53,537 bases of DNA from a virus. The stretch spans positions 1 through 53,537 of IMG/VR virus record IMGVR_UViG_3300009127_000006, one strand, 5' to 3'. Below the pieces are notes generated by a model that saw only the letters and a list, made by a program, of their open reading frames with translations, did no database searches and was not told the origin of the DNA. The position numbers were made by a program, and so were the translations under genes. This document shows, piece by piece, positions 4,829 through 53,537 of the stretch. Position 1 is the first letter of the stretch, and each line of letters opens with the position of its first letter.

Positions 4829-5434
4829 ATGGCAAAGAAAAACGGGGGGAATAATAATCATCCGAAGAAGGGCTCTGAGATAAAGGTGGAGCCTATTAAG
4901 GAGCTGAAGGACGTGAGACTGATCAAGAAGATGCTGGCGGATAAGCCGCGGGACCTCGCTATCTTTACGGTTGGGGTCAATACGAACCTGCGGGCGTCGG
5001 ATCTGGTGGGGTTACGGGTGGGCCAGGTGCGGGGACTGGTTGCGGTTGTCGGCGATACGGTGGAGATCAGGGAGAAGAAGACTAAGAAGAAGCGGCGGGT
5101 GACGTTAAACGGTGCCTGTGTTCGGGCCATCGGGGACTTGCTGGAGGATCACGAGGGGGAAGACCACGAGCATCTGTTTGTGGGGCAGCGGGGTCCGCTT
5201 ACGGTGCCGACCATTAATAATATGGTTAAGGGGTGGTGTGCGGAGATCAACCTGCGGGGGAATTTCGGGAGCCATACCCTGCGAAAGACCTGGGGGTATC
5301 ATCAGCGGGTGAGTTTTGGTGTGGATCTGCCGCGGTTGATGGTGTGCTTTAATCATTCGAGCCAGAAACAGACGCTTGATTATTTGTGTATACAGCCGGA
5401 GGAGATCGAGGACGTTTATCGGAATGAGATTTGA
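4829..5434 (+). CDS. Tyrosine recombinase, catalytic domain only
   Basis: A 201-aa phage integrase/XerD-family catalytic domain. The usual residues are visible: Arg in TNLRASDL, Lys in the basic KKTKKKRRVTL hairpin, H-x-x-R in SHTLRKTWGYHQR, a second His in FNHSSQ, and the nucleophile Tyr in TLDYLCIQPEE. There is no arm-binding or core-binding N-terminal domain; only about 20 low-complexity residues precede it. Full integrases are usually 300-400 aa. It may act as a stand-alone recombinase (dimer resolution or site-specific rearrangement) or need a partner. It does not by itself prove lysogeny, as no attachment site is visible nearby. Confidence 0.85.
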   Translation: MAKKNGGNNNHPKKGSEIKVEPIKELKDVRLIKKMLADKPRDLAIFTVGVNTNLRASDLVGLRVGQVRGLVAVVGDTVEIREKKTKKKRRVTLNGACVRAIGDLLEDHEGEDHEHLFVGQRGPLTVPTINNMVKGWCAEINLRGNFGSHTLRKTWGYHQRVSFGVDLPRLMVCFNHSSQKQTLDYLCIQPEEIEDVYRNEI

Positions 5435-9240: not shown

Positions 9241-10060
9241 AACTGGCTAACTTTTGATAATTTGTTGGGGAGTGGGTTTTGGGTTGTTTATGGCGTCATA
9301 GCAGGGGATTGCCGGGGTTTTCGACCGAGGTGGGGGATGTGGGATGCCGGGGACTGGTGGGGTTTCGTGGTTAGGGTGTGGATAGTTGGGGAGATCGCGG
9401 GCCCGGGTCTTCGGCCGGCGCCAGGCCTGCCAGCGCTTCTTTTTTATATGGATGACCACCTCGGCGGCGCTGCGGCTTGGAAGAATGAACCCGGGCCTGG
9501 GATGCGGGAAAGGGGAAATCCGAAAACCGAAAACCCCGGAGACCCGAGTCCCTACCCCCCCTATATATATGGTTGCTGTGGGATTTTTCAAGGTTTTGAC
9601 TTGGATTTCCATACTACCCTTAATAATTTCCAGATATTTACCCAGGCAAAAGGGGTGCGGGGAATTTGGTTGCGACTTGCTGGATTAAGGCTGATAATGC
9701 GAAATGTCCTGATTAAGATATTTAGAAGTGTTTTAGCGCGACTTTTTCCAAATCTATATAAACGAGCTATGTTAATTGAGTCAGGGTTTTTATGGGTAGG
9801 TTTATTTATGTGGAAAAATCCGATTAAGATATTTGGAAGATTTTCAGGGCGGAAAAATTCAATTCCAGATCAATGTGTTAATGGGGTAGAGGGGATAAGT
9901 GACTGTCACTCTTATAATAATAGTGGTTTTTATATCTGGAATTGCTGTTTTGGAAATTTTTAAAAATTTCAAACACCGGATTCTATATAAAAGATTGGTG
10001 ATTATTAATGTCTAACTTCTTTCAGTTAATTATAACAGGTTTCAATAAGGATGTCGGCTC
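9241..10060 (+). other. Gene-poor stretch, GC-rich then AT-rich
   Basis: No convincing gene. 9241-9590 is GC-rich and open on both strands, but the frames look like overlapping shadows. From about 9590 the sequence becomes AT-rich. It contains the direct repeat GATTAAGATATTT(A/G)GAAG at 9711-9728 and 9822-9839 and a perfect palindrome GAAATTTTTAAAAATTTC at 9953-9970. TTGACT at 9596-9601 could be a -35 box, but no good -10 is seen at the right distance. The stretch leads into the repeat cluster at 10061-10418. Confidence 0.5.
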
Positions 10061-10418
10061 TGGATCGCTGGATCGGCTTGGATCGGTTTTGGGATCGGTT
10101 ACTACTACTACTACTACTACTACTATATTATTATATATTATATATATATTAATAGCTTATCTATCTTTCGTTAATCCCATATTCCGTTTATGTTTATATA
10201 CCGATCCAGCGATCCAAGGTTTTTCTTTAAGAGACACGCGAGAAAATTATCTTCTATTTTCCAAATCCAGATACCCTTATTTGATCTGGAATCTCGAAAT
10301 TAGAGACCTTTTATATAGATCTCTTAGATTGAAAAAGATGGATCGCTGGATCGCTTAGTAAGAAATCGAGTCAATACAGTTATTTAAATCGATCCAAGGC
10401 CGATCCGGGGCCGATCCA
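10061..10418 (+). other. Origin-like iteron cluster around AT-rich core
   Basis: The 15-mer TGGATCGCTGGATCG occurs exactly at 10061-10075 and 10339-10353, and as its exact reverse complement at 10202-10216. Further half sites (TGGATCGG or CGATCC) lie near 10079, 10091, 10390, 10400 and 10412, about eleven in all. Between them lie a run of ACT triplets (about 10101-10124) and a nearly pure A/T block (about 10122-10155). Repeated protein-binding sites beside an easily melted segment, between primase and helicase-like genes, is the usual make-up of a replication origin. An operator cluster for the gene at 10436 is the main alternative. The small open frame across it consists of repeat translation and is not a gene. 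Confidence 0.6.
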
Positions 10419-10435
10419 AAAAACAGGAGTTTAAG

Positions 10436-12275: not shown

Positions 12276-12650
12276 ATGATTATTATCTGGTGGACGTGGT
12301 GTTTTCCACAGACGTTTATAGGGTTTATCCGGCGGCGGATGATGATAGGGAAAATCATCTCCGAGGTGTTTTATATGTCAGGGACCCAGATCGTGTATTA
12401 TAGAGGGTCTTATTGGGACGGTGCCTCTTTAGGCCGGTACCTGTTCTGTCCGGGGGAGCATATGGTCAGGCATGAGTATGGCCATAGTTTACAGTCTCTC
12501 ATCTTAGGTCCGCTCTATCTACTTGTTATTGGTGTACCGTCAATGGTGTGGAATTTCATGAAACGGCGGGATATGTTTAGCGGAATTGATTATTATGCGT
12601 TCTTTACCGAACGATGGGCGGATAAATTGGGGAAGGGAGCCGGCGGGTAA
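12276..12650 (+). CDS. HEYGH zincin-like membrane-associated protein
   Basis: A 124-aa protein from ATG 12276 with GGAGGG upstream. The central RHEYGHSLQS is a HExxH-type zinc site. The following hydrophobic stretch (LGPLYLLVIGVPSMVW) and FFTERWADKLG, whose Glu may be a third ligand, match a family of small predicted metallopeptidases with a membrane segment behind the active site. A basic, hydrophobic N-terminus (MIIIWWTWCF ... RRRMM) may also contact the membrane. The substrate is unknown. Adjacent to a secreted repeat protein and just upstream of the packaging genes, it could act on the host envelope during the late phase. Confidence 0.65.
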   Translation: MIIIWWTWCFPQTFIGFIRRRMMIGKIISEVFYMSGTQIVYYRGSYWDGASLGRYLFCPGEHMVRHEYGHSLQSLILGPLYLLVIGVPSMVWNFMKRRDMFSGIDYYAFFTERWADKLGKGAGG

Positions 12651-12652
12651 AT

Positions 12653-12799
12653 ATCCTACATCCTGCATCTTGCATCTTGCATCCTGCATCTTGCATCTTG
12701 CATCCTGCATCTTGCATCTTGCATCCTGCATCTTGTATCTTGCATCCTGCATCTTGTATCCTGCATCGTGCATCTTGTATCCTGCATCGTGCATCCTGT
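12653..12799 (+). repeat. Longest heptad array, 21 units (ATCCTGC/ATCTTGC)
   Basis: 147 bp made of 21 consecutive 7-nt units, mostly ATCCTGC and ATCTTGC with ATCTTGT and ATCGTGC variants. The first half shows a 21-bp higher-order pattern (two ATCTTGC then one ATCCTGC, repeated). Because 7 is not a multiple of 3, all frames stay open in places, producing false proteins on both strands. No unique spacers occur, so it is not a CRISPR. An AT-rich spacer follows. Confidence 0.95.
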
Positions 12800-12913
12800 A
12801 AAACCATGTCAAGCGGTATTTTATTTTTTTTTACACTTATTTTTAGTCTATATTGTTGAATAATGTTTTTTCGGGCTGCTTAAAAAAGCACGGCCTGAAT
12901 GTGTGGTAATATG

Positions 12914-14704: not shown

Positions 14705-15241
14705 ATGAACGTCCAGGTAAGCGCCAGACTCCGACATCGAACGCCCAACATCGAACGTCGAATAAAAGAAGAATATCAATCAACAATCCATAAGACTGCT
14801 GTGATTGACGATGGCGCGGTGATCGGATCCGGCACCAGGATATGGCATTTTTCTCATATCATGGGCGGCGCCGTGATCGGCCGGGACTGCGTGCTGGGTC
14901 AAAACGTGTTTGTGGGTAATGGTGTGGTTATCGGGGATCGGTGCAGGATTCAGAATAATGTGTCCCTCTATGAGGGGGTAATCTTAGAGAGTGATGTGTT
15001 TGTGGGTCCTTCGGCGGTGTTTACAAATATTAAATGTCCCCGGGCATCCATTAACCAGAAAGACAGGCTTGAGCAGACGTTTATAAGGCGCGGCGCCACC
15101 ATCGGGGCCAACGCAACTATTATCTGCGGTGTGGCAATCGGGAAGGACGCCTTTGTGGCGGCCGGGGCCGTGGTGACGAGAGATGTGCAGCCGGGTGTCA
15201 CGGTGGCGGGTGTTCCCGCTGAAGAGCTGTACTGGGATTAA
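14705..15241 (+). CDS. wlbB: Hexapeptide N-acetyltransferase (WlbB/WbpD-like)
   Basis: A 178-aa left-handed beta-helix acetyltransferase. Hexapeptide repeats run from about residue 34: [76 protein letters not shown]. The IWHFSHI opening and the VFTN...PR loop are diagnostic of WbpD/WlbB, which N-acetylates the 3-amino sugar made after the WlbA step. The N-terminal 28 residues are unlike the family: 14733-14760 is a heptad repeat array (ACATCGA type) translated as [10 protein letters not shown], so repeat DNA has become coding. No strong ribosome binding site is seen, and translation is probably coupled to wlbA. Confidence 0.85.
14733..14760 (+). repeat. Heptad array inside acetyltransferase 5' end
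   Basis: GACATCG, AACGCCC, AACATCG, AACGTCG: four units of the AACATCG type, lying within the open frame of the WlbB-like gene and encoding [10 protein letters not shown]. The same unit type in the same reading frame occurs at 21561-21595. Confidence 0.8.
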
Positions 15242-20941: not shown

Positions 20942-22331
<1,390 letters not shown>

Positions 22332-22372: not shown

Positions 22373-23644
22373 ATGAAAGAGAGATATAATCAGCTGCCGG
22401 TTTGGCCTTGCTGGCGGGTTAAGGGGTCGGGAGAGACTTATCCCACTATTCATAAGGCCGCGCTCGCGGTAAAGGATCTTTCCTTTAACCTCGACCATGT
22501 GCTGATCCGGAGCGCCCGGCCTGAAAAGATGAAGGTTTATCATAAATACGCGGCCCTTCTGGACCGGGACGAGTTTACCCGGACCACCATGTTTAATGAG
22601 ATCGAGGTGGTTACACGGGAACCGTCCCCGGAGATCAGAGCCCTGTACCGGCAGACGCCCGGCACAAAAGAGATAGAGACCACCTATATGGCCGAGCAAT
22701 GCGTAAAGGCCTTGGCCGCGGCCATAGAGGATGAGTGGGAGCCGGACAAGGTCCATATAATGCCTCACTCTGCCGGGTATGACAGCCGGCTGATAAGCGC
22801 CATACTCAGAAACCTGGCCCGGAAAAACGGACCGGAGTGGCTCGGCGAGATGCGTTTTGCCTGTTGGGAACCCGAGACGGCTTATTTTAAACGGATCATG
22901 GATCATATGGGATGGCCCGAGCGGTTCATATGCCCCATCCGGTCCGACCGGGTGGTGGATTATTACGAACGGGTGACCGATTTCGATCTCGTGGGCGAGA
23001 TTTATTGCGAGCCCGAGCGGTTCTGGGCAGGCCCGGCCCTGGCCAGGGTTATGATGCAGGATGAGGGAATCGACGAAGATGACTGCGTAGGCATTACCGC
23101 CCTCTTTGGCGATGAGACCGGGAAGATGAACCGGCTTTCCTGGCCCGGTATCAGCTATTTTCTGGCCTGCTATCTCTTTGAGAACCCGTCTCCCTGGTTG
23201 GGGAGCGAAATCCCTTTTATGACACCCTTTGTGTCAAAACCGTGGCTGGAGCTGCTATCGAGGTATAAGATCCCGTGTACTTTGGATTATTTTAAACTGG
23301 AAATGATAGCGATTGCGGACCGGGAAATGGTTGATTTATTTAGGTTTCCCAACTTCCGGTTTGTGCATGGGCCCATCATGAGCCACAAGAAATACCACCC
23401 GCACCAGGTCTTGAGCGAAGAGACCGCAAAAAAAATGGAAACGTGCTTTTTAAATTCGTGGTATTATCAGAATCACGGAAAAAAAGAGGTCCTCCCGTTT
23501 CCAAGGATTCTGTACTACCACCACGAGGCCTGGAATGAGTATCTGAAGGCGGCAATTTGTGAGAATCTGATAAAAAGGGGATGCACGATACAGCCTCCGG
23601 CCCAGAGGGCCTCTGGCCCGGCGGGGATGGATGATGCAGGATAG
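22373..23644 (+). CDS. PP-loop ATPase, asparagine-synthase-like
   Basis: A 423-aa protein. Residues 133-139 read SAGYDSR, a variant of the PP-loop SGGxDSR that binds ATP and pyrophosphate in asparagine-synthase-like and related amidotransferases. No glutaminase domain is present, so ammonia or another amine would come from elsewhere. A role in activating a carboxyl group of a sugar acid (amide formation) would fit a glycan cassette but is inference. The C-terminal residues TIQPPAQRASGPAGMDDAG are translated from the 41-bp GC-rich palindromic element at 23589-23629, so the native C-terminus was probably shorter. Confidence 0.65.
   Translation: MKERYNQLPVWPCWRVKGSGETYPTIHKAALAVKDLSFNLDHVLIRSARPEKMKVYHKYAALLDRDEFTRTTMFNEIEVVTREPSPEIRALYRQTPGTKEIETTYMAEQCVKALAAAIEDEWEPDKVHIMPHSAGYDSRLISAILRNLARKNGPEWLGEMRFACWEPETAYFKRIMDHMGWPERFICPIRSDRVVDYYERVTDFDLVGEIYCEPERFWAGPALARVMMQDEGIDEDDCVGITALFGDETGKMNRLSWPGISYFLACYLFENPSPWLGSEIPFMTPFVSKPWLELLSRYKIPCTLDYFKLEMIAIADREMVDLFRFPNFRFVHGPIMSHKKYHPHQVLSEETAKKMETCFLNSWYYQNHGKKEVLPFPRILYYHHEAWNEYLKAAICENLIKRGCTIQPPAQRASGPAGMDDAG
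23589..23629 (+). repeat. 41-bp GC-rich palindromic element, copy 1
   Basis: Starts TACAGCCTCCGGCCC and contains AGAGGGCCTCTGGCCC; identical over 41 bp to copies at 24136-24176 and 29493-29533. This copy lies inside the 3' end of the PP-loop gene. Confidence 0.9.
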
Positions 23645-23654
23645 AGGAGGAATA

Positions 23655-24128
23655 ATGGGGGACGCGGTGCAAGAGATTGTTTATTCGATTAAGCGTATTT
23701 GTGAGGTAGGTAAATTCTGCGCGATCCCTCCGGATCTTCAGGTGGGGGCGGGTGTGGTCATCGAGAATTTTGTGGAGATACAGAAACAATGCGTCATAGG
23801 CCAAGACACATGGGTCAGGTCTTATGTCCGGATCGGCAACGGGTGCCAGGTGGGGGCCAATGTGACCCTGAAATGCTCGGCTATTCTGGGACCCGGGACC
23901 ACGGTTGAAGACAATGCCTTTATCGGGCCCCAGGTAATATGCCTGTCTGATCTTGAGACAAAGGTCACGGGTACGGTTATCGAGAAGGGCGCCTTTGTGG
24001 GTGCAGGTACGAAGATCATGCCCGGAATTACCGTAGGCGCCGGCGCCATTATCGGCGCTATGAGTTTTGTAAATCGTAATTGCGAACCCGGAAAGAAATA
24101 CGCGGGTGTGCCCATACGGGAGATATGA
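23655..24128 (+). CDS. Hexapeptide-repeat acetyltransferase
   Basis: A 157-aa protein from ATG 23655 (AGAGGAGGAATA ribosome binding site). The beta-helix repeats cover most of it (VGAGVVIENFVEIQKQCVIG, VRIGNGCQVGANVTL, AFIGPQVICLSD, VIEKGAFVGAGTKIMPGITVGAGAIIGA), ending with a PGKKYAGVPIREI tail that resembles maltose-type and WbpD-type transferases. It is the last gene of the glycan cassette. Together with the PIG-L deacetylase it may re-acetylate an amino sugar. Followed by a composite repeat border before the portal gene. Confidence 0.8.
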   Translation: MGDAVQEIVYSIKRICEVGKFCAIPPDLQVGAGVVIENFVEIQKQCVIGQDTWVRSYVRIGNGCQVGANVTLKCSAILGPGTTVEDNAFIGPQVICLSDLETKVTGTVIEKGAFVGAGTKIMPGITVGAGAIIGAMSFVNRNCEPGKKYAGVPIREI

Positions 24129-24135
24129 TGTACGA

Positions 24136-24221
24136 TACAGCCTCCGGCCCAGAGGGCCTCTGGCCCGGCGGGGATGTAGGATGTAGGATGGAGGATACAC
24201 GATGCAAGATGCAAGATGCAG
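24136..24221 (+). repeat. Composite border: 41-bp palindrome copy 2 plus heptads
   Basis: Palindromic element at 24136-24176, running straight into seven heptads: GATGTAG, GATGTAG, GATGGAG, GATACAC, GATGCAA, GATGCAA, GATGCAG (24173-24221). This 135-bp non-coding border separates the glycan cassette from the portal gene. Confidence 0.9.
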
Positions 24222-26568: not shown

Positions 26569-26622
26569 GGGAGTGTCTGCATCCGGCGCCGGACACGGCG
26601 GGTGTGTCACTCCCTTTTCTTT
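26569..26622 (+). terminator. Intrinsic terminator before scaffold gene
   Basis: GGGAGTG (26569-26575) pairs with CACTCCC (26608-26614), with an inner CCGGCGCCGG palindrome, followed by TTTTCTTTT. A smaller GC-rich hairpin (CGGGGCC/GGCCCCG) lies upstream at about 26538-26555. It would allow capsid-region transcripts to be set apart from the packaging region. Confidence 0.7.
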
Positions 26623-26630
26623 TGGCGAGC

Positions 26631-26691
26631 ACGATGCAAGATGCAAGATGCAGGATACAGGATGTAGGACAATATTCAATATTCAATTTAA
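26631..26691 (+). repeat. Heptad array, about eight units
   Basis: ACGATGC, AAGATGC, AAGATGC, AGGATAC, AGGATGT, then AATATTC, AATATTC, AATTTAA. Two unit types succeed each other in the same border upstream of the scaffold gene. Confidence 0.85.
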
Positions 26692-27752: not shown

Positions 27753-27891
27753 AAGAAGTTTGGAGTTACGAGTTTGGAGTTTTAATCGGAATATTCCTTA
27801 TTTAACTTTAGCCTCTGGCCCGGAGGGCCTCCGGCCCGGAGGGGCACTCCACACTCTACACTTTAAACTTAACAGAAGGAGGTAATCTGAT
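27753..27891 (+). repeat. Composite border repeat A, upstream of capsid gene
   Basis: Order: GGAGTTA-type heptads, the spacer AATCGGAATATTCC, a GC-rich palindrome (27811-27845, GCCTCTGGCCCGGAGGGCC core), CACTCCA-type heptads, then AACTTAACA and AAGGAGG. Nearly the same roughly 140-bp block lies downstream of the capsid gene at 28861-29006, so the capsid gene is flanked by direct repeats. Confidence 0.95.
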
Positions 27892-28860
27892 ATGGCAACA
27901 CAGGTATTTACATGGAACTGGGACGCCCCCACGGGTGTCTACAAGAACCATGCACTCTCTGGCCAGCTTTTGAAGGTCGCGGCAAGGGAGTTTAAATTCG
28001 TACCCTTTACCAAAAAGGAAAGCTCCTTTGGTAAGGGAAAAGGTGAGAGTGTAACCCTTATCTATTACAAGCCCTTAACACAACCCACTTCGGCGGCCCT
28101 GGAAGAAGAGACCAGGATCCCCATCGATCAGCTGACCACGGGAAAGCAGAGCATCACCATCCAGGAATGGGGTCGTGGTGTGGAGTACACGGATCTCGCC
28201 AAACAGCTCTCCAAGTTCGATCCCGGTGAAGGCGCCCAGGAGGCCCTTAAGGATCAGATGAGGGAGGCCATGGACGTGGCGGCAGCATCGGAGTTTAACG
28301 GCACGGACGCCAAGGTCATTTTCATCCCCACCAGTCTCACGGGCGGGACATGGGACACGGACGGAACTGCGTCTACCGCGGCCACGGTGAATGTGACAAA
28401 GCATCACATCTCGGCCATCAGGGATTATATGATAAAGGATCTTCATGTGCCCTTCTACGATGGCGAGCATTATATCGGTCTCATGTCCACCAAGGCCCTC
28501 CGCGGGCTCAGGGACGACAAGGTCATCGAGGCCTGGAACCTCTATCTCCGTAAGGGTGATCATCTTTACAGGGGTGAGATCGGCCAGGTGGAGAATGTGC
28601 GCTTTGTGGAGGTGACCAATGAAAACTCCCTGTCAAACAGTGTCGGAACCGGCAGCGTCCTCGGTGAGGGTGTTATATTCGGGAAAGATGCGGTCGCCAG
28701 GATCGAGATCGAGTTTCCGCATCTCAGGGCACAACCCAACTATGTGGCCGACTTCGGTCGCAGGCACGCGGTGGCCTGGTACGGAACGGTGGCCTTTGGG
28801 GTCAAGTTCCCCACCGCCACGGATCGCGAGGCGAGGATTGTAAGGATAACAAGTTCATAA
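27892..28860 (+). CDS. Major capsid protein (N4-gp56 type)
   Basis: A 322-aa protein with a strong ribosome binding site (AAGGAGG). The sequence pattern is that of N4-gp56-family HK97-like coat proteins: an N-terminal arm, LLKVAAREFKFVPFTKKESSFGKGKGESVTL, then EEETRIPIDQLTTGKQSITIQEWGRGVEYTDLAKQLS, a central HHISAIRDYMIKD helix, YIGLMSTKALRGLRDD, and near the end NYVADFGRRHAVAWYGTVAFGVKF. It builds the icosahedral shell. Expression is probably the highest in the genome, in line with its codon use and ribosome binding site. Flanked by a near-identical 140-bp repeat on each side. Confidence 0.92.
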   Translation: MATQVFTWNWDAPTGVYKNHALSGQLLKVAAREFKFVPFTKKESSFGKGKGESVTLIYYKPLTQPTSAALEEETRIPIDQLTTGKQSITIQEWGRGVEYTDLAKQLSKFDPGEGAQEALKDQMREAMDVAAASEFNGTDAKVIFIPTSLTGGTWDTDGTASTAATVNVTKHHISAIRDYMIKDLHVPFYDGEHYIGLMSTKALRGLRDDKVIEAWNLYLRKGDHLYRGEIGQVENVRFVEVTNENSLSNSVGTGSVLGEGVIFGKDAVARIEIEFPHLRAQPNYVADFGRRHAVAWYGTVAFGVKFPTATDREARIVRITSS

Positions 28861-29006
28861 AAGAAAGTTAGGAGTTACGAGTTTGGAGTTCGGAGTTAAA
28901 ATCGGAATATTCCTTTTTTAACTTTAGCCTCTGGCCCGGAGGGCCTCCGGCCCGGAGGGGCACTTCACGCTCCACACTTCAAACTTAACACAAGGAGGTA
29001 ATTATC
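28861..29006 (+). repeat. Composite border repeat B, downstream of capsid gene
   Basis: The same composite as 27753-27891 (heptads GGAGTTA/GGAGTTC, spacer AATCGGAATATTCC, identical GC palindrome at 28927-28961, heptads CACTTCA/CGCTCCA/CACTTCA, AACTTAACA, AAGGAGG), with small differences. It supplies the ribosome binding site of the next gene. Confidence 0.95.
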
Positions 29007-29468
29007 ATGTTAAGGAGCGATATTCCTGTAGCACTTCCCCTACAGCTGTTTATTGATTATGACGATGCGGCAGGGGTTGATGTTGATCAGTCGGCCAAGG
29101 ATGTGGGCGTGTTCAGCGTTCCCTTCAAATGCCAGGTGGAGAGGGCCTATCTCGCGGTTACAGAGGTCTGTGCCGGGGCTACCCTTACACCGGTGGTCAA
29201 GTTCGATAAACGACCCACGCAAGGGAGTGACACGGCCCGGGGTGATGGTGACATTGCAAATTTCGTCATGAGCACCACGGCCCAGGGAAAAACCCTTTAC
29301 GATGAGGTGGCCCAGGGCACTGTTCTCAGTCCGGGTGAGGAGGTCATTGTTGAACTCGCGGTCAGGCCTACCGGCGGCGCCGTCACGGGCCATTTCCGTC
29401 CCGTGCTTCTGGTGGAGTATTTACCGGAGACACAGGCCAACCTGTCCGACACGGTTGTAACCGCTTAG
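29007..29468 (+). CDS. Probable capsid accessory or decoration protein
   Basis: A 153-aa beta-rich protein directly after the major capsid protein. It reads MLRSDIPVALPLQLFIDYDD, KDVGVFSVPFKCQVERAYLAVTEV, TLYDEVAQGTVLSPGEEVIVELAVRPT and GHFRPVLLVEYLPE. Strong strand-turn periodicity and position suit a head decoration or head-fibre protein. No family is recognised. Confidence 0.55.
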   Translation: MLRSDIPVALPLQLFIDYDDAAGVDVDQSAKDVGVFSVPFKCQVERAYLAVTEVCAGATLTPVVKFDKRPTQGSDTARGDGDIANFVMSTTAQGKTLYDEVAQGTVLSPGEEVIVELAVRPTGGAVTGHFRPVLLVEYLPETQANLSDTVVTA

Positions 29469-29476
29469 GGGTTAAT

Positions 29477-29533
29477 GATGCAGGATACAGGATACAGCCT
29501 CCGGCCCAGAGGGCCTCTGGCCCGGCGGGGATG
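29477..29533 (+). repeat. Heptads plus 41-bp palindrome copy 3
   Basis: GATGCAG, GATACAG, GATACAG followed by the 41-bp GC-rich palindromic element at 29493-29533, identical to the copies at 23589 and 24136. Confidence 0.9.
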
Positions 29534-29583
29534 GATGATCCAGTATTCTGCACCCAAAAACCAAAATCAAAAGGGAGGTTATT

Positions 29584-30054: not shown

Positions 30055-30056
30055 GG

Positions 30057-30144
30057 AGATTGTAGATTGTAGATCGCAGATCGCAGATTGAACTGCGATC
30101 TACAATTTCAATCCAAAATCTGAAATCCAAAATCCAAAATCAAG
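30057..30144 (+). repeat. Two heptad arrays with a 13-bp perfect inverted repeat
   Basis: AGATTGT, AGATTGT, AGATCGC, AGATCGC, AGATTGA (30057-30091), then after the turn AATCCAA, AATCTGA, AATCCAA, AATCCAA, AATCAAG (30110-30144). TTGTAGATCGCAG (30067-30079) is the exact reverse complement of CTGCGATCTACAA (30093-30105), so the array folds on itself. Confidence 0.95.
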
Positions 30145-30156
30145 ACGGGGGGGATC

Positions 30157-32530: not shown

Positions 32531-32604
32531 AATGTCCAACATCGAACATTGAACATCGAACATCGAATGAAAGGACAAATACCTAATACCCAATACCCAA
32601 TACC
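32531..32604 (+). repeat. Two heptad arrays (AACATCG type, TACCCAA type)
   Basis: AATGTCC, AACATCG, AACATTG, AACATCG, AACATCG (32531-32565), then TACCTAA, TACCCAA, TACCCAA (32580-32600) running into CCCGGAGG, the ribosome binding site. Confidence 0.9.
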
Positions 32605-36141: not shown

Positions 36142-36149
36142 TAAAAGAT

Positions 36150-36233
<84 letters not shown>

Positions 36234-39443: not shown

Positions 39444-42400
39444 ATGGCCCAGGCATTTAGAACCGACGAAGAGTTCAGGGACTGGCTCGGTGTGCCGCCC
39501 CAGGCGCCGGATCGGGATCTGAAGTTTGAGGATGATGACGAGTTTGTCAACTGGTTGAAGACCGGCGAGAAAAAACCGGAAACTCCAGATTTTTTATTTA
39601 TCCCGGGCGCGGTCCTGAGATCCGTGTATGAGACCCCCCGGTCTATCGGGTACACCGGTCAGACCCTGGCCGATCTCGGTGCGGCCGCGGCGCGGAGATC
39701 CAGTGAGTCGCAGGAGATCCCCACAAGGGACCGTCTGGCGCCCTATGTGCTGAGTGATATTTTTAAGGGCGAGCGGGAACTGGGCCGTAAGTTTAATGAG
39801 GATGAGTATCGCGCCCGGGTCCTTCAGTCGAGACAGGCCCATGCCGAAGAGCGGCAGGCTCCATGGAGGTGGCTGAAGAAAAAATCCGGAGAGCACCTGG
39901 ACTATTATGAAGAGATCATAAAAAACGATCCTAAGATACAGAAATTTGAACGTGCCCTGGCAGAGGGTAAAGTGCCTTTACTTGTGGAGGCTCTGGGTAG
40001 TTTCGGGCCCACCTTGGGTGGTCTCATGACCGCGATGATCCCCGTGGTGGGCTCCCCGGCGGCTCTGGCCATGTTCTACGGTCTGAACAGCGAAGAGACC
40101 TATCGTACCATAAAAGACACATTATTGAAAAACGGTGTGTCCGAAGAGGACGCGGAAGCAGAGGCCCAGAAAAAGAAGCTGCAGATCGGTTTAGTGAAGA
40201 CCGCCCTTGATTTTATGGGTATGAAGGGTCTGGCCCAGGCCTATAAACCGGCCAGTAAATTCTTGAATGCGGCGTGGCAGTTCGGTATATCCACCATCCC
40301 GGAAGCGGTGACGGAAGGGTTTCAAGGGCTATCCGACACCCTGGCAAAGGAGTGGGTGACACGTCCAAAAGGGGAGACATCCAAGGCCTTTTTCGGCCGT
40401 ATGTGGGACAAGAAAGGCGAGTTGTTTAAATCCATGGCCCACGACGCGGCCATTGGCGGTCTGGTGGCAACGGGTGTGACAGCCACAGGGATGACCGCGG
40501 AGCGGCTTCTGGACAAAGACGCCGCCATGACTACCGGGGATCGGGGTGTGACGGATGCGGCGCAGCCTCCGGCGGAGGACGATCAGGCCTTTATGCGGGA
40601 TCTGGATGTGGACGACGGCCGGGTGGATATCAGCAGGGAGCTCGAAGCGGATACGCCCATGACCACCGGGGACCGGAGTGTAACGGATGCCGCGGAGGGC
40701 GATACGAGAGAAGCTGAAAGCTCAAGGCTGGAAGCTGAAAGGCTGGAGACCGAGGAAGAAGCCGCGGCCGAGGATGCCTTAGCCGCGATCGCGGCCGCCT
40801 CCGGCCCGGAGGGGCCTACGCCCCGGAGGGAAGAAGAGGCCCCTATCCTTTTAGATGATATCATAGACACACCGGTTGACGAGAGGTTGGAAGACTTACC
40901 CCAAGAGTCCCTACCCGGGGAGCCCCCCACTCTCCCGGATGAAGCGGACATTTCCCCCATACCACCACAGGAAGGGCCCGCCACGCCCGATCCTGTGGTG
41001 GTCCCACCTGTGGAAGGCGAAAGGCGAAAGGCGCAAGGCGCAAGGGAGGTGCCGGCGGTAAACGCTGAGGTTTCGGAGGGTGAGGGTGGTGTAACCAGGA
41101 TCAAATACACCAATGAAAAGGGGGAGGCCGTGGGTGATGCCCGGTTGATGGGTACGACTATCGGGGATATCACGGTCAAGGAAGATTTCAGGCGCCAGGG
41201 ATACGGCACGGCTATTTTAAATGATCTGATGGAGCGAGGTGGAAAAACCGGTGTTGCCGGTTCAGATGCCGGTGAGGCTTTGATGCGAAAGGCCGGGATG
41301 GTGGAGGGGCAGCGAGGGCATTTTGCTATTGAGGAGGCAATCCCGCCCATAGCCCTGATCAAAACAAAGGACGGGACCTTCCAGGCCGTGGGTACGCATT
41401 TAAACGTCCTCCAGGAGCATGGGATTAATCCCGAGGATGTCCTTGATACGGGGATGATCGACAAAAAGACCGGGGATGAGATATGGGGCGGCGGTAAGAA
41501 GGTTAAGGGCGCACCGAAGAAACCCTCCAGGGCTGTGGAAACCCTTACCGGGAAGAGAAAAAAACCAAAGGTCAAGGAGATCCGTTTGGATCCGGAGGAA
41601 CGGGAGATCCTTATAAAGTATACCCTCGCCGGGAAAAAGACCGCGGCGGAAATAGGTGAAACACAGAACCTGGTACTTACGGCCGGGCCCCCTGGAGCCG
41701 GTAAATCCACGGCCCTTAAAGGGTTAAATCGTGATGTCACGGACCATGTGGTGGCCAATGCCGACGATATCAAGGAGCTGGCAGGTTACGCGGACCAGGC
41801 CGAGGCCTTTCATGAGGAGTCGAGCCTTATAAATAAGGAAGTGATCAAGCGGGCCATGGACGGCGGGTATAACTCCATATACGATTCTTTGATGAGCAAC
41901 TTTCCGCTGGCCGATAAACTTATCTCCAAAACCCTTGAAAACGGCGGTGATGTGGATATCGCCATGACGGATATCGACGGGTACACGTCCGTGGTGAGAT
42001 CCCGGCTCCGGTACGAGAAGGGTGAAACCGTTCGGAAGGTGCCTATTGAGGCCTCTGTCAAGGGCTATAACCGTGTTGTGCCCACCTTTCTGGCGCTCTT
42101 TAAAAAGTACGGGGACAACCCCAATATAACATGGAATGTGGTCAATAATAACCGGGATCAGGCCCATCCTGACGACCGGCCGGCCCGGCCGGTTTTTACA
42201 AAATTGAACGGTGTTACAACGGTCCATGATCAGAATTTACTTGACAAGCTCTTTGATGTGGATTATATTGCTACTGGTACGGGAGGCGATTTACGTTATG
42301 AGAGGCGACAAAAGCTTACTGTTCAAGACGTCCGGGAAGCCGAGGAATCCATCCGGGCACGCATTAGGAAGGGCCGTTTTCAAGGCGATGATGTACATGA

Positions 42401-45400
42401 CACCGCACAAGCAGGAAGACGTCCAGTTTCTCGACACGGGCGAGGTCCGGCTGGCCAGCACAAAGACTCCCAAAAAGCCGCTCCGGCAGCAATAACCCCA
42501 TCTGACACTCCGTCTGATAAACAATCTGATACTCAAGAAGCTAAATTAAAAAAGGTGGGCATTGCCGTCGTTCCTACGGAAGACCTGAGCCTGGATCCCG
42601 CGCGGTTTCAATTTAAACGGGGTATGGGTAAGGGCGGAGCCGGGGCAAAGCTGCGCGGTATAGAGGTCTTCCGGCCCGAACTGGCCGGGGTCATCGCCGT
42701 GTGGAAGGATCCGGCGGACGGTAAGACCTATGTGGTGAACGGCCACCACAGGTATGAGATTGCCTCCAGGACCGGGTACCCGGAGATGGCGGTGCGGTAT
42801 CTCGATGCCGAGACCGCCGGGCAGGCCAAGCTCCTGGGGGCGCTGATCAATATCGCCGAGGACCAGGGGACCCCGGAAGACGCGGCCACCATACTCAGGG
42901 AAGAAGAAATAACCCCTGAACAGCTGAAAAACCAGTACGGAATATCCCTGAAAGGCCCACTTGCCAAGAAAGGGGTGGCCCTGGCACAGCTTCACCCGGG
43001 GATCTTTGACAAGGTCTTAAAGGGTGAGCTCCCGCAGACCATTGGTGTGGTCATAGGGGAGAAGGTCCCGGACGAGGCGGACCAGCTGGCGCTCATAGAG
43101 CTCATAAATAAGAAACAGAAAGGGCGTAAAGGCAGTATCGGCGCCGATGTTGTCGAGCAGATGATAAACACCCTGGCCGGCGCGGATAGGGTGACCGAGG
43201 AGCAGATAAATCTCTTCGGCGAGGAGGCCGTAGAACGACCTCTTTTAATGGAGACAGCGGAGCTCCATAGTTATCTAATAAAGAGCCTCAAAAAGGACAA
43301 GCGTCTCTTTGGTCTGGTGGCAAACTCCGGTAACGCAAAGGCTTTACAGGACCGGGGAAATCTGATAAAACAGGAGCAGAACCTTGAAATATCCAAGGAA
43401 GCCGCTGTAATTCTCGATGTTTATAATAAACTGGCCTATGTTGGAGGACCGGTAAACGATCTTATAAACGACGCGGCAAAGGAGCTGGCCGATGCAAAGG
43501 ACAAAAGAGGACGTGATAAGGTTAAGCAAGGCCTACAGAAGAAACTCAGGGAAGCAGTTTCAAGAGTCCTGCAAGGAAATCGCCCCGGCGTTTCGGAAGG
43601 CCCTGCGCGATATCCTGGACTTTCAAGACCATCCGGAAAAATATCTGAAGATGTACAAGGACAGATCCGGGAGCAGCTCGCCCTCTTCGGGGCGCCGGAA
43701 GAAGCAGGTTTTGAATTAACCCCTGAAGAGCTGACCAAAACAGAACAGCTGGCCCGGAAACAGGATGAGGCCAAAAAGAAGGGTCTGGTACCCAAAGGGA
43801 AGGGGTTGACATTCCCGGCGGGAAAGGCCATAAAGACAAAGAACGTAGGTAAGCAGCAGGGTCTTTTCGGTCCTGATGCGGACCAGGGCGATTTATTTGA
43901 TCAGGGTATAGAGGTACCAGGAGATGAGCAACCGGTTTATGAAACCGCAAAACCAGAAGAGATCGCACTTAAACCTGGTAAGGACGAAGGTCGTGCCCTA
44001 CCCGGTGCAGGAAGGGTGCAATATCGGACCTCCGGAAGAATCAAAGCGGCCGGTAACGTGGTCAAAGACACCGGCGACCTCGCCTCCCTCCTTGCCAGAA
44101 TCCGCACCGAGCCCGACGAATATTTCTACTCCGTAGCCGTAGACAAAGACGGCACCATCCTTGAAATTCATGAGCATACTAAAGGGGGCCGCTCCGGCGC
44201 CCATGTTTTCCCGGACACCGTGGTGGGCCGCGCGGTCCAGGTGCCCGGTGTGGCCAAGGTTTATTTTGCCCACAACCACCCGTCCTATGGCATGGCCCAT
44301 TCACCGGAAGATGCTCAGCTCACAAACGCTATAAACAGACTGCTCAATATCGCCGATATCCCCACGCAGTCCATCATTATAGGTGGGAATAAATTTGCCA
44401 TACTCACAGAAGCGGGCGCCGGCACTGCCAAAAGGATCAAACCCGTCTTACGAAAGACCCTGCTTAATAAGGTAAAGCGCCGGACGGGGAGAGCTTTTAA
44501 GCCGCAGTTCCCGGAGCTGACGAGTTCCGCCCAGGTGGGACCGTTTTTCGCTCAACACCTCAATGCCGAGGACGGGGTCCTGCTTTTAACCGGCCAGAAT
44601 GAGGCAGTGGCTTTTCTGCCCTTTGTCAAAGGCCGGAGCATGAAGCAGACCACACTTGACATCCTGAAGCTCGCGGAAAAGACAAACGCGAGCACCATGA
44701 TCATAAAGAACGATTCAAACAGCACGGCCCGGAAGGATTATATCAAGGCCCTGGTATCGGAAACCGTCGGGACCTTGAATGTTTTAGATGTGCTCGAATA
44801 CGGAAAATCCTTTGCAGATGGCGAGATTCCCGGGAAGTACGGGCGGGACAGCCTCGGGCAGACGGAGAGGGATGTTATGCTCGGGAGTGATGTCAGACTT
44901 TCTGTGGTGCCCCCAACAAAAAAAACTGGCCGTCCGAAACGGGGCTTCCCCCACAAAACCGTCAGCGATATTGTAACAAACATCCACAAACAGCTCGCCG
45001 TGCCGGAGTTGCAGGTCCGTTTTCTTCCCGATGTCCGTAATCTCGGACCAAAGAGACTGGCCCGTTTCAAGATCGACCCGGACCGGCAGCTCGTTCGAGG
45101 GCTCTTCACCCATGAGGACGGGAAACCCGTCGCCTATTTCTTTTATAATAATCTCGATACAAAAAAAGAGGTCATCGATGTGGCCATGGAAGAGATCCTC
45201 CATTTCGGTCTCTTCAGGTCCCTCGGAAAAGGATACAGAGATGTCCTGGACCGGGTCTATAAAGGACATAAGACGGCCATAAAGAAGACCCTCGGGGCTG
45301 ATTACGAATTTGATCTCAATACCGTCAAGGGCCGGGCCGAGGCCGTGGATGAGTGGATCACAAAGGGGATCGTGAATGAGACCCTGCCGCAGAACGTGTG

Positions 45401-48400
45401 GCGCCAGATCGTGACGGCGGTCAGGAGGATGCTGCGGGCGGCCGGGATCAAGATCCATTACTCCACCGCTGAGATCAAGTCCATAGTGATTGATTCGGTG
45501 AGCAAGGGACAGAGGTCAGAGGTCGGAGGTCGGAGGTCAGGTGCGCCGGGGACCCGGAAGCAGGTGGTGGCGTGGCAGGGTGGCGGTGCCGAGGTGGTGG
45601 GTGGATACCAGGATCGGTTTATTGGTAGTGGTGAAGGCGAGACGGCGTTTGGGTGGGGGCATTATTTTACGGATCTGAAGAGTATCGCGGAGTCGTATGC
45701 AGAGGATCTCGGTAACCGGAATCTGATTGTCTATGACGGTGTTGAGTATTCGCCGGATGAGTTTATCGCGCGGATTGAAAAAGAGTTTGGGTCAAAGTAC
45801 CTTGGAGTGGGCCAGATAATCCAGTACGATTTCAGAAGCGGGTATTTGCCTGATGAAATATACAACACCTTGACCCGTATGAAGAATGAAACTCCGGATA
45901 GATTGAAGGTTGCGAAACAGATAACAGAGGGACTTGAAAGGGCCTCGACCGAGACCGGTCGCTGGCAGGTACGTCTGAAGGGTGGGATAAGAGACCTGAA
46001 TAAACTCTCCGATCAAGAACGGAGCACGTTATTTGAAATCCAGGGCCGGGCCGGATGGGTTTTAAAGAAGAGAGATCCCTTGAAAGTAGTGAGGGCAGAC
46101 CTTAAAAAGACCGTAAAGGCGCAGAAAGAAAATATTGCATACCAGAAAAAACATCCGCGGGCGGCTGACCCAGGGAGAGATCCAGTTCAAATAATGAAAG
46201 AGGCCCAGGCCACGCTTGATTTCATGGACAAGCATGATCTTGTTACCGAGTGGCCCAAAGGCCGGCGCCACCTTCATAAAGTAACCATCCAAAAAGGCAA
46301 AAAACCGAGTGAGTATGAGTGGCTGGATTGGGATAAGACAGTTACAGATAAACAGTTAGATAAAATTAATAAATCAATAGATGAGGACTACCCAAAAGGA
46401 AATCCATTGAGAGATAGTTTTCACAGTTTAATAGAGTCGTTAAGGCGTGAAATATCTCTGTATGAAGGTGTTAGAGCCAATGGTGAAGAACTTTATAAAA
46501 GCATTTCCAATATTCTTGGTGAAGCTTGGAATAGGGGTCAAAAAGAGGCTGGTGGGATATATTCAAGATCCGGTCATGCACTTGCCGACAAAGAAGCCTC
46601 CATGTTCTTATTAAGGGCAGGTATAGACGGGATCCGGTACCCGGCGGGATCGCTGTCCGGGATGGAGGATAAGGGCGCAAAGAACTATGTGGTGTTTGAT
46701 CCCAACGTGGTTACGGTGGAGGAGCATACCAGATACAGTATGGAGGCCGGGAAAGCGGAAGAGCGAAAGAGGGTCGTTGACCTGCTTAAAAATCAGGATG
46801 GTTTTGTGTCCATCGAAGGTTTGAAAAGCGTCCCTGTAATACACGATAATGTTTTAAATACAGCGAAAGACATGATAAATCAGGGAGCTGCGACCTATCA
46901 GCAATTCGTAGCTCGAATGAAAGAAATCTATGGCGAGGTGTGGGATAAGATCAAGGCGGTAATGAAAGACCTTTACGATACCGCTAAAAAGATTATTTCC
47001 AGTGAGGTCGGAGCCATAACAATAGAAGGGAAGCCCCGTAAATCAGAGCTCGATACTGTTTATGAGGGTATGCGGCCGGAGGTTCGGGAGCGTTTGGAGG
47101 CTTCGGAGGGTGTGGAGAAGCTGCCGTTTTGGGAGAGGGCTAAGCAGAAGATCGACAAGGTCCGGGGATCGCGTCATCATTTTGAACATCTCCGGGCGGA
47201 TTACGGCCATCTCTCGGACCCACTTAGATTACTGGAAGGGGCTTCAGAACGAAGCCGCGAGAAGGCCGTGGAGGCGCTAAAAGGGATCCATGCAGGTCTT
47301 GGTACCCCCAAAAACAAGCGTATTTTCGAGCTGAACCTGGTTTTAGACGATCTGGTAAAGGATATGGAGTCGGGTCTTCTTCCCCAAAAGGCGGACCCGG
47401 ACGAGACCCTGCCCTTTGGTTTTAAGGATATGAACGAGGTGTCCCGGGAGCTGGCCCGTCAGAAAACCATGGCCGATAAAAACCCGGCCGTGAAAAAGGC
47501 GCTCGAAAAACGTACAAAATACATGACCGATCTCCGTAATAGCCTGGTGGAGAACGGCCTCCTCGATGAGGCGGTGTTAAAGGACGACCGGTATTTTCAT
47601 CATCAGGTCCTGGAACATCAGGTCATAAAAGAGATGGGGGAGGAGTGGAAACAGAAGCCGGGGACATCCACGGCGGATGTGCGGCTGCGGAAGAAGGGAT
47701 GGCAGCGGGCCCGTAAGGGAAGCCTGAAGGATTATAACACGGAGTACATCCAGTCCGAGTTCGAGGTGATCGCCCAGGCATTGAGTCAGTTAGAGATCAA
47801 GCAGACCATGGACACGCTCAAGGACCGGGCCGATATCTTTGACGGGCTGAAGGAGCAGGCCAAGAATTATAATGTCAATAAGGTGTGGGACGTGCTCCGG
47901 AAGAAAGGCCAGATCGAGATCAACGAGAAGACAGGCGAGGAGATCGATCCCTTTACACCGTTTAAACAAAAGACCTTTGTGGCAAACCTGAAACTGGCCG
48001 AGATGGCCGCAAACGGCGAGCTGGAGGTCCCGGATCAATACACCGGCCTCGTGGAGGATCTGGCCGATTCTTATAATCAGTATATGGCCGACAAAAAGGA
48101 TTACCCGGATGACCCTGATATGTGGACACGGCCAGGATCAAACGACCCGAAATGGTTTCCATTCCTGGGGTATCTCGTGGGGAACAAGACGCCCGGATCC
48201 AACTGGGCCGCCAGTGTGTTTAAGACGGTTATGGAGCGGGACCGGTTTATAAAGAAGACCCTGGGCCGCGGGTTTAAGACTTATGAGGACTTTATCCCGG
48301 AGGATTTTCAGGCATGGGATCCGTCCGTGGACGGGGTCTGGTTTAAGACCAACATGATTACGGACCAGATGCTGGAGCAGATCCGGGCAGGAGACAGGGA

Positions 48401-50998: not shown

Positions 50999-51017
50999 AA
51001 GGAGGGGTTAAGAGATG

Positions 51018-51099
51018 AACATCGAACATCGAACGTCCAACATCGAACGTCGAATGAAAAACCCATCCTGCATCTTGTATCCTGCATCTTGTATCCTGC
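51018..51099 (+). repeat. Two heptad arrays back to back (AACATCG, ATCCTGC types)
   Basis: AACATCG, AACATCG, AACGTCC, AACATCG, AACGTCG (51018-51052), then ATCCTGC, ATCTTGT, ATCCTGC, ATCTTGT, ATCCTGC (51065-51099), followed by GAAGGAGG as ribosome binding site. Two unit types seen separately elsewhere are joined here. Confidence 0.95.
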
Positions 51100-52131: not shown

Positions 52132-53537
52132 ATGAAAAAGATACTTATAATGATTTTTCTCTCCCTGTTTTTTACCGGGACTGCACTGGGCGCCAACGGG
52201 GATCCGGTCTTAGAGGGCAAGACCGCCACCGGGAATATCACCACCAGCGCTACCCTCCAGGGGGAGCATATTATATCTACAGATGACGCGGATATAAACG
52301 ATAATCTGACGGTTGGTGATATCATAGTGGATGAGGCCACCGGTGTGATTGATTTTACTAGTGGGACAAGTGCTACAATATCTGCAACTGGTGCAAATGC
52401 ACTTATATTGTTAGAGAGTGTAACTATTGGTGATAACACAGATAATGACTTCAGTCTCACCTTTGATGGTGATACCTCGGACGGTGTGCTGAATTATGAC
52501 GAGGATAACGCTAATTTTGAGTTTGACCAGGATGTTACTACGACTGGGGTGGCAACCGGTGAGCATATCGTATCCACAGATGATGCGGATATAAACGATA
52601 ATCTGACGGTTGGTGATATCATAGTGGATGAGGCCGCCGGTGTGATTGACTTCACAGGTGTAACAAGTGCTACGATCTCTGCAACAGGTGCAAATGCACT
52701 TATATTGTTAGAGAGTGTAACTATTGGCGATAATACCGACAATGACTTTTCACTCACGTTTGATGGAGACACATCTAATGGCACTATCAATTATGATGAA
52801 GATAATGCAGATTTTGAGTTTGACCAGGACATTGCCTCAACTGGTAACGTTGAAGGCGCAACACTTACCTACAATGGAAATGAAGTTTATCGGGCAACTG
52901 GGACTGATGTACCAGTAACAGATGGGGGAACTGGAGTAAGTACGTTAGCCGATGGTGGATTAGTAATAGGAAATGCTACTGGGAATGTAGAAGTAGTAGC
53001 AGCTGGGACAGCAACACAGGTTCTAGTTGGCGGTGGAGCGAATACTGCACCTGTGTGGGGTACTGATATTCCAACAGCTGTAACCATAGGGGCAAAATAT
53101 ATCTACAGAGCTGATGGTACTGATGTCCCTGTAACTGATGGTGGAACTGGGGCAGGAACATTTACAGATGGAGGATTATTAGTAGGTGCTGGAACATCAC
53201 CACTCGAAGCATTAGCAGTAGGGTTAGCAACTGAGGTCTTAGTTGGTGGAGGTGCTGGTACAAATCCTGCGTGGGGAACAGACTTACCAACAGCTGTAAC
53301 GATTGGAGGTGCTGAAGTTTATCGAGTTGGTGGAACTGATGTTGCTGCAACCGATGGTGGAACAGGCAAAAGCTCCTGGACGCAGTATGCCATTCCTTAT
53401 GCTCCCACAACGACTACTATTGGCGAAGTAACGCCTGCCGCCAGTTCTGTTCTCGTGACTGATGGATCTAATATTCCAAGTCTGGCAACTGATATTCCTA
53501 CTGCTGTGACGATTGGTTCAGCTTATGTTTATAGGGT
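52132..53537 (+). CDS. Tail fibre, 5' part, with signal-peptide-like start
   Basis: At least 468 residues, open at the window end. Start ATG 52132 with AAAAGGAG. The first 22 residues (MKKILIMIFLSLFFTGTALG) look like a signal peptide, which is unusual for a cytoplasmic virion protein, though some environmental phage fibres have one. The body has two nested repeat systems: a 99-residue repeat (297 bp, 52264 and 52561, STDDADINDNLTVGD) and a 72-residue repeat (216 bp, from about 52903, TDVPVTDGGTG at 52903, 53119 and 53335). Both are typical of trimeric beta-structured fibres that bind the host surface. Base composition is AT-richer than upstream. Confidence 0.8.
   Translation, partial: MKKILIMIFLSLFFTGTALGANGDPVLEGKTATGNITTSATLQGEHIISTDDADINDNLTVGDIIVDEATGVIDFTSGTSATISATGANALILLESVTIGDNTDNDFSLTFDGDTSDGVLNYDEDNANFEFDQDVTTTGVATGEHIVSTDDADINDNLTVGDIIVDEAAGVIDFTGVTSATISATGANALILLESVTIGDNTDNDFSLTFDGDTSNGTINYDEDNADFEFDQDIASTGNVEGATLTYNGNEVYRATGTDVPVTDGGTGVSTLADGGLVIGNATGNVEVVAAGTATQVLVGGGANTAPVWGTDIPTAVTIGAKYIYRADGTDVPVTDGGTGAGTFTDGGLLVGAGTSPLEALAVGLATEVLVGGGAGTNPAWGTDLPTAVTIGGAEVYRVGGTDVAATDGGTGKSSWTQYAIPYAPTTTTIGEVTPAASSVLVTDGSNIPSLATDIPTAVTIGSAYVYR
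52264..53537 (+). repeat. Tandem coding repeats of the fibre (297 bp and 216 bp)
   Basis: Two copies of a 297-bp unit start at 52264 and 52561 (GAGCATAT followed by closely matching sequence). Three copies of a 216-bp unit are marked by ACTGATGT-like starts at 52903, 53119 and 53335. Both lengths are multiples of three, unlike the border arrays, so these repeats are selected as protein. Confidence 0.9.

Follow-up and report, generated by a model that had tools for sequence, protein, structure and literature searches.

Repeat-built hairpins before and after the major capsid gene of a phage late operon as candidate mRNA structures

The spacers on either side of the major capsid protein (MCP) gene were found to hold two copies of one composite intergenic element in the window, that is, the whole 53,537 nt of the virus record analysed. 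As RNA, each copy would form a long hairpin with an outer stem of heptads, an inner GC hairpin and the Shine-Dalgarno sequence left outside. On balance, the explanation favoured is that the two repeats are intercistronic hairpins that process or stabilise the late mRNA and were assembled from dispersing repeats. This function is inferred from their position, shape and folding strand bias, and from how REP elements and phage processing hairpins are known to behave. Repeats of this kind are usually seen as parasites or unexplained clutter, and the window offers a testable case of dispersing repeats serving as mRNA structure.

The repeat pair and its predicted fold

The gene between the repeats (27892..28860, + strand) matched phrog_1357 (E 1.5e-15), Pfam PF25209 and NCBIfam TIGR04387. 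The last match scored 76.4 bits against a curated cut-off of 60, placing the protein in the N4-gp56 family of major capsid proteins. It is followed by g29007 (29007..29468, +), a conserved small structural-module gene with 57-64% amino acid identity in the relatives compared, for which PHROG, Pfam and NCBIfam profile searches gave no family match.

The upstream copy occupies the whole spacer that separates the scaffold-like gene from the capsid gene (27753..27891, +) and consists of a long heptad hairpin followed by the Shine-Dalgarno sequence AAGGAGG. The downstream copy likewise fills the spacer between the capsid gene and g29007 (28861..29006, +) with the same element plus one heptad. The two were aligned as direct repeats of 133 nt with 89% identity (27754-27886 and 28870-29002, spacing 1116), and a nucleotide search with the upstream copy returned the downstream copy with an E-value of 3e-49, far beyond chance. 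The near-identical flanks described in the first-pass annotation were thereby confirmed, as was the order it had given, which the alignment showed in both copies: heptads, AATCGGAATATTCC, GC palindrome, heptads, AACTTAACA, AAGGAGG. Also supported was its proposal that the two genes share a leader, with an equivalent ribosome binding site for each. The differences between the copies amounted to five arm substitutions, a few more in the spacer and ends, and a single 7-nt indel of exactly one heptad. Assembly duplication of the second copy is unlikely, since an artefact would be expected to be identical whereas the copies differ by about 11% and one whole heptad; they are therefore real paralogous copies.

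The heptads on the two sides of the palindrome had been noted as roughly complementary, and folding of both leaders, a check that had been suggested, showed that they pair as the outer stem of a single long hairpin in each copy. In the upstream copy, the left-arm heptads AGTTTGG, AGTTACG, AGTTTGG and AGTT (27757..27782, +) pair with the complementary right-arm heptads CACTCCA, CACTCTA and CACTTTA (27845..27872, +). The layout was shared by the downstream copy, with left heptads of the AGTTTGG type pairing with right heptads of the CACTCYA type and the GC palindrome forming the inner hairpin. The palindrome region of the upstream copy, GCCTCTGGCCCGGAGGGCCTCCGGCCCGGAGGGGC (27810..27844, +), is identical to that of the downstream copy (28926..28960, +) and 89% identical to 29496-29530. 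Folded as mRNA, the upstream copy gave one continuous hairpin with the Shine-Dalgarno sequence unpaired (MFE -49.6, z -3.69) and the downstream copy one long hairpin with this sequence outside the stem (MFE -52.6, z -4.20). When the Shine-Dalgarno sequence was omitted from the downstream copy, the z value was -5.34 for the mRNA versus -2.79 for its complement.

Of the four arm substitutions between the two copies that fall at or beside paired columns, three preserve pairing, by one-sided G-U/G-C, U-A/U-G and G-C/G-U exchanges, and one left-arm T/A difference loses one pair in the downstream copy. The exchanges between the two copies were one-sided only, with no double-sided compensatory change, and the capsid pair alone therefore argues only weakly for RNA selection. 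That point is carried by the strand test across relatives described below, not by the pair itself.

The hairpins were also considered as intrinsic terminators, and this was rejected because the stems lack a U-tract: in the spacers compared, at most four U, mostly 0-2, were present in the nine bases after the stem. The bases after the two stems are AACAGAAGGAGG and AACACAAGGAGG, with no T in the six bases after the downstream-copy stem, and terminator prediction listed neither capsid-flank hairpin. A terminator-like hairpin does lie near 26592-26612, before the scaffold gene, and a heptad array of the GATGCAA type (26627..26669, +) is located 3' of it and 5' of the scaffold-like gene.

As both genes receive the same leader, the repeats could instead be a duplicated promoter, operator or attenuator with a signal driving both genes, for example around GGAATATTCC, which is a perfect 10-bp palindrome and is found in each copy. 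However, no sigma-70-like site was found in either copy, and the region contained fewer such sites than its shuffles. TCGGAATATTCC occurred only in the two capsid-flank spacers within the window and in no relative's orthologous spacer, and the lack of a U-tract means that the hairpins are not intrinsic attenuators. A regulatory signal of this type was considered improbable.

Heptad arrays and GC palindromes across the window

The window contained 15 strict period-7 arrays, rising to 23 at a relaxed threshold, built from many different units; shuffles produced no strict period-7 array. At other periods, one strict array was found at period 6 and none at 4, 5 or 8-13. The period-7 arrays were mostly in spacers, several of them 10-20 nt 5' of a start codon that has a Shine-Dalgarno sequence. 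The heptads flanking the capsid gene are thus part of a genome-wide period-7 pattern.

The GC palindrome core was present in five copies, in spacers or gene ends, between 23.6 and 29.5 kb (~6 kb), and at 23.6, 24.1 and 29.5 kb it recurs inside another heptad set. Further copies of a second composite family (heptad - GC palindrome - heptad) were located at 23580..23648 and 24127..24195 (both +); the whole spacer of the latter folds no better than shuffles (z +0.36). The spacer after g29007 (29469..29568, +) has a related GC palindrome enclosed by heptads of another set and forms a strong hairpin (z -3.91), and that after g29584 (30055..30156, +) forms a heptad hairpin of GATTGTA/GATCGCA (z -6.52). 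Strong hairpins were concentrated in the head module (24-33.4 kb) relative to the other window spacers (Mann-Whitney p=0.02), and heptad spacers without a hairpin also exist (36142 and 24129).

Several further repeats were recorded. A CATCTTG/CATCCTG heptad is repeated about 20 times in a spacer at 12650-12800, with a higher order of 21 nt. A GAACATC heptad element is found at 21554-21605, 32534-32569, 36144-36189 and 51016-51048, in the same orientation in several spacers, and is matched exactly over 34 nt by a viral contig (L073, 8620-8653) whose compared stretch showed no protein homology with the window. The arrays at 41009-41048 and 45503-45543 lie inside an ORF of 3694 aa (39444-50528) and are hence necessarily translated. 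A 297-bp tandem repeat of 1.9 copies (~85%) is located at 52264-52829, near the right end of the record. At 10054-10420, a cluster of short repeats (TGGATCGC, TAC, TA) with a 22-nt inverted repeat (10202/10332) precedes a helicase gene and is origin-like. Among the genes, three paralogous phrog_5353 proteins are encoded at 14705-15241, 21540-22331 and 23631-24128, the last also matching the Pfam hexapeptide repeat, and a short tyrosine recombinase (201 aa, 4829-5434) suggests a temperate phage or a truncated integrase. Searches of the window gave no Rfam match at gathering score and no tRNA.

The hairpin slot in relatives

The comparison covered nine close relatives and 41 loci collected with a profile. 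For the slot 3' of the MCP gene, where a spacer is almost always present in relatives, 28 non-redundant MCP-to-next-gene spacers were available (the window and 27 relatives). A hairpin with z < -2 was found in 22 of the 28 (mean -3.45), compared with 5% of coding windows as background; some of these loci are partly non-independent, L052 and L053 being alike, and likewise L048 and L051. Short hairpin-free spacers followed the MCP gene in L048, L050, L051 and L060. None of the 27 relatives' spacers resembled the window element (top alignment z 2.9, most near 0), and the relatives with a filled slot include distant ones whose hairpins are short, simple and GC-based and have no repeat units. Among distant isolates, a hairpin followed the MCP gene in Escherichia phage PTXU04 (z -2.5) and Streptomyces phage LuckySocke (z -4.6), and Vibrio phage D279 has a 10-nt gap at this position. 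Since most relatives hold a hairpin of unrelated sequence in the downstream slot, what is kept is that the mRNA has a hairpin there; the conserved feature is the hairpin slot after the MCP gene, not the hairpin sequence. The next two spacers past g29007 followed the same rule, which covers several head-module spacers and is therefore not specific to the capsid gene.

In the upstream slot, four of the six relatives examined had only ~15-35 nt before the MCP start. The two nearest in portal, G004 and G001, and the L035 group had upstream spacers of unrelated sequence. In one relative (L009 5955-6060 and G006 spacers), the spacers consist of inverted repeats of CCACGAATGAACACGAATAACACGAAT and CGCAGATCTACACGGAT, whose units are not of seven. 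Many of the hairpin arms are nevertheless heptad arrays, with differing units.

The first-pass annotation had proposed that homologous recombination between the direct repeats could exchange the capsid gene or remove it. At 133 nt, 89% identity and 1.1 kb apart, they are long enough for this in principle, and deletion of the capsid gene between them is physically possible. Against exchange, the order portal - scaffold - MCP - g29007 - g29584 was unchanged in all relatives with both flanks readable, and where contigs allow, the fuller order portal - g26201 - scaffold - MCP - g29007 - g29584 - g30157 was constant. MCP distances tracked those of the neighbouring genes (correlation 0.77 with portal and 0.71 with g29007), giving no exchange signal. 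Alignment of the flanks in relatives, also suggested at that stage, gave an upstream-downstream match beyond shuffles in none of the eight others: the best, L045, scored 23 against a shuffled maximum of 27, and the window pair scored 189. Loss of the capsid gene would in any case be lethal for the phage. The proposal was accordingly not upheld and is regarded as very improbable; the near-identical flanks of a capsid gene need not imply cassette exchange.

The capsid pair was the strongest spacer similarity observed, the next pair scoring 88. Similar spacer pairs made up 6.9% of those within a genome versus 0.9% of those between genomes (~8-fold), which suggests that elements spread by copying between slots and that the capsid pair is one case. 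Judged from these sequences, the capsid repeats would represent one private copy event in spacers with quick turnover. The element core was not found in viral contigs, and similar DNA was not found in isolate phages. Three matches to the core in genome contigs were without the heptads and GC palindrome and so were taken as chance-like. A heptad spacer searched against plasmids gave only a weak 39-nt match, in two Pseudomonas plasmids.

The main rival to the preferred explanation is that the elements are selfish, REP/MITE-like DNA palindromes without mRNA function that insert in spacers, so that the hairpin is the shape of the transposing DNA and the sites reflect insertion tolerance. The elements are indeed palindromic, extragenic and multicopy within the genome, the GC core having five copies across 6 kb. 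Related elements were also seen at non-orthologous positions in other phages (G006r 17245 versus G003 10317, score 67), and the GAACATC heptad element, which an unrelated viral contig carries in identical form, fits the same pattern. However, the post-MCP slot is filled in most relatives, including the distant ones with short non-repeat GC hairpins, and no Y1-type transposase was present among the 29 window proteins scanned.

DNA-level palindromes would also be expected to fold equally on both strands. Of the 24 spacers in which at least one strand formed a hairpin, 19 gave the better fold on the coding strand (sign test p=0.0066; Wilcoxon p=0.0035). Dinucleotide shuffles served as the control for composition, and a caveat is that palindromes are partly strand-symmetric. 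Coding windows showed an equal mean fold z for both strands. Some stems rely on G-U pairs and are lost on the complement, as in the g29584 spacer of G001 (z -8.0 versus -1.2); L045, L069, L042 and L047 had spacers that folded better on the complement. The bias favours selection at the mRNA level, pointing to RNA as the level at which selection acts, and is unexpected for selfish palindromes. That rival was rated as rather unlikely.

Proposed function and comparison with known systems

In the preferred explanation, the element flanks the capsid gene of the late operon with one copy in each adjoining slot, and the copies would serve as intercistronic mRNA punctuation. Each non-terminating stem would likely block exonucleases, mark a processing site, or both, and the capsid cistron, shielded at both ends, could then be produced in excess. 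The intergenic repeats would be copied from spacer to spacer within the phage genome and later replaced. For the capsid pair, one copy event is envisaged, probably into the upstream slot, because that slot is nearly empty in many relatives. More tentatively, the late operon of the clade may contain fixed hairpin sockets between structural genes, selected for RNA shape alone, into which different repeats are recruited, including heptads shared with unrelated viruses and presumably hosts, such that function is kept while sequence is replaced.

In enterobacteria, REP/BIME elements are multicopy GC-rich palindromes between operon genes, and their mRNA hairpin can shield the upstream cistron from 3' exonucleases. 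The phage element resembles them as an extragenic GC palindrome in several copies (five, 23.6-29.5 kb). It differs in that its outer stem is made of 7-nt tandem units, its sequence varies from phage to phage, and it is situated in a phage late operon with no RAYT/Y1 (HUH) transposase among the 29 window proteins scanned. In phages, the RNase III sites of T7 are hairpins for mRNA processing and stability. The RNase E processing sites of T4 gene 32 are conserved in related phages (PMC3014915). Like both of these, the hairpins described here lie between cistrons of a phage operon, where in the known cases processing gives differential mRNA stability. Unlike in the conserved T4 sites, the sequence of these putative processing hairpins is freely replaced.

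Tandem heptads have been described in two other settings. The class 3 multicopy elements of Geobacter metallireducens consist of five tandem heptanucleotides in opposed pairs, with the unit MTYCTGA, and were proposed as IHF/HU binding sites (PMC2700814). They share with the phage elements the opposed-strand heptad arrays with a spacer, the intergenic location and the many copies. The units here are AGTTTGG/CACTCYA and many others, however, and the elements are phage-borne, with strand-biased folding that points to RNA. The TAACTGA heptamer repeats of Beggiatoaceae, Cyanobacteria and Bacteroidetes are found in spacers just 5' of start codons, where they take the place of Shine-Dalgarno sites and do not act as hairpin arms (PMC4679880). 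Both types are tandem heptamers in spacers 5' of starts with differences in 7-nt steps (for TAACTGA, between relatives), but many units are used here instead of one and AAGGAGG is retained between array and start. Because the unit sequences differ, no membership in the Beggiatoaceae or G. metallireducens heptad families is claimed. Intercistronic hairpins and heptad repeats were each already known separately; new here are heptads as hairpin arms in phage late operons, a slot that is conserved while its sequence is replaced, and strand-biased folding.
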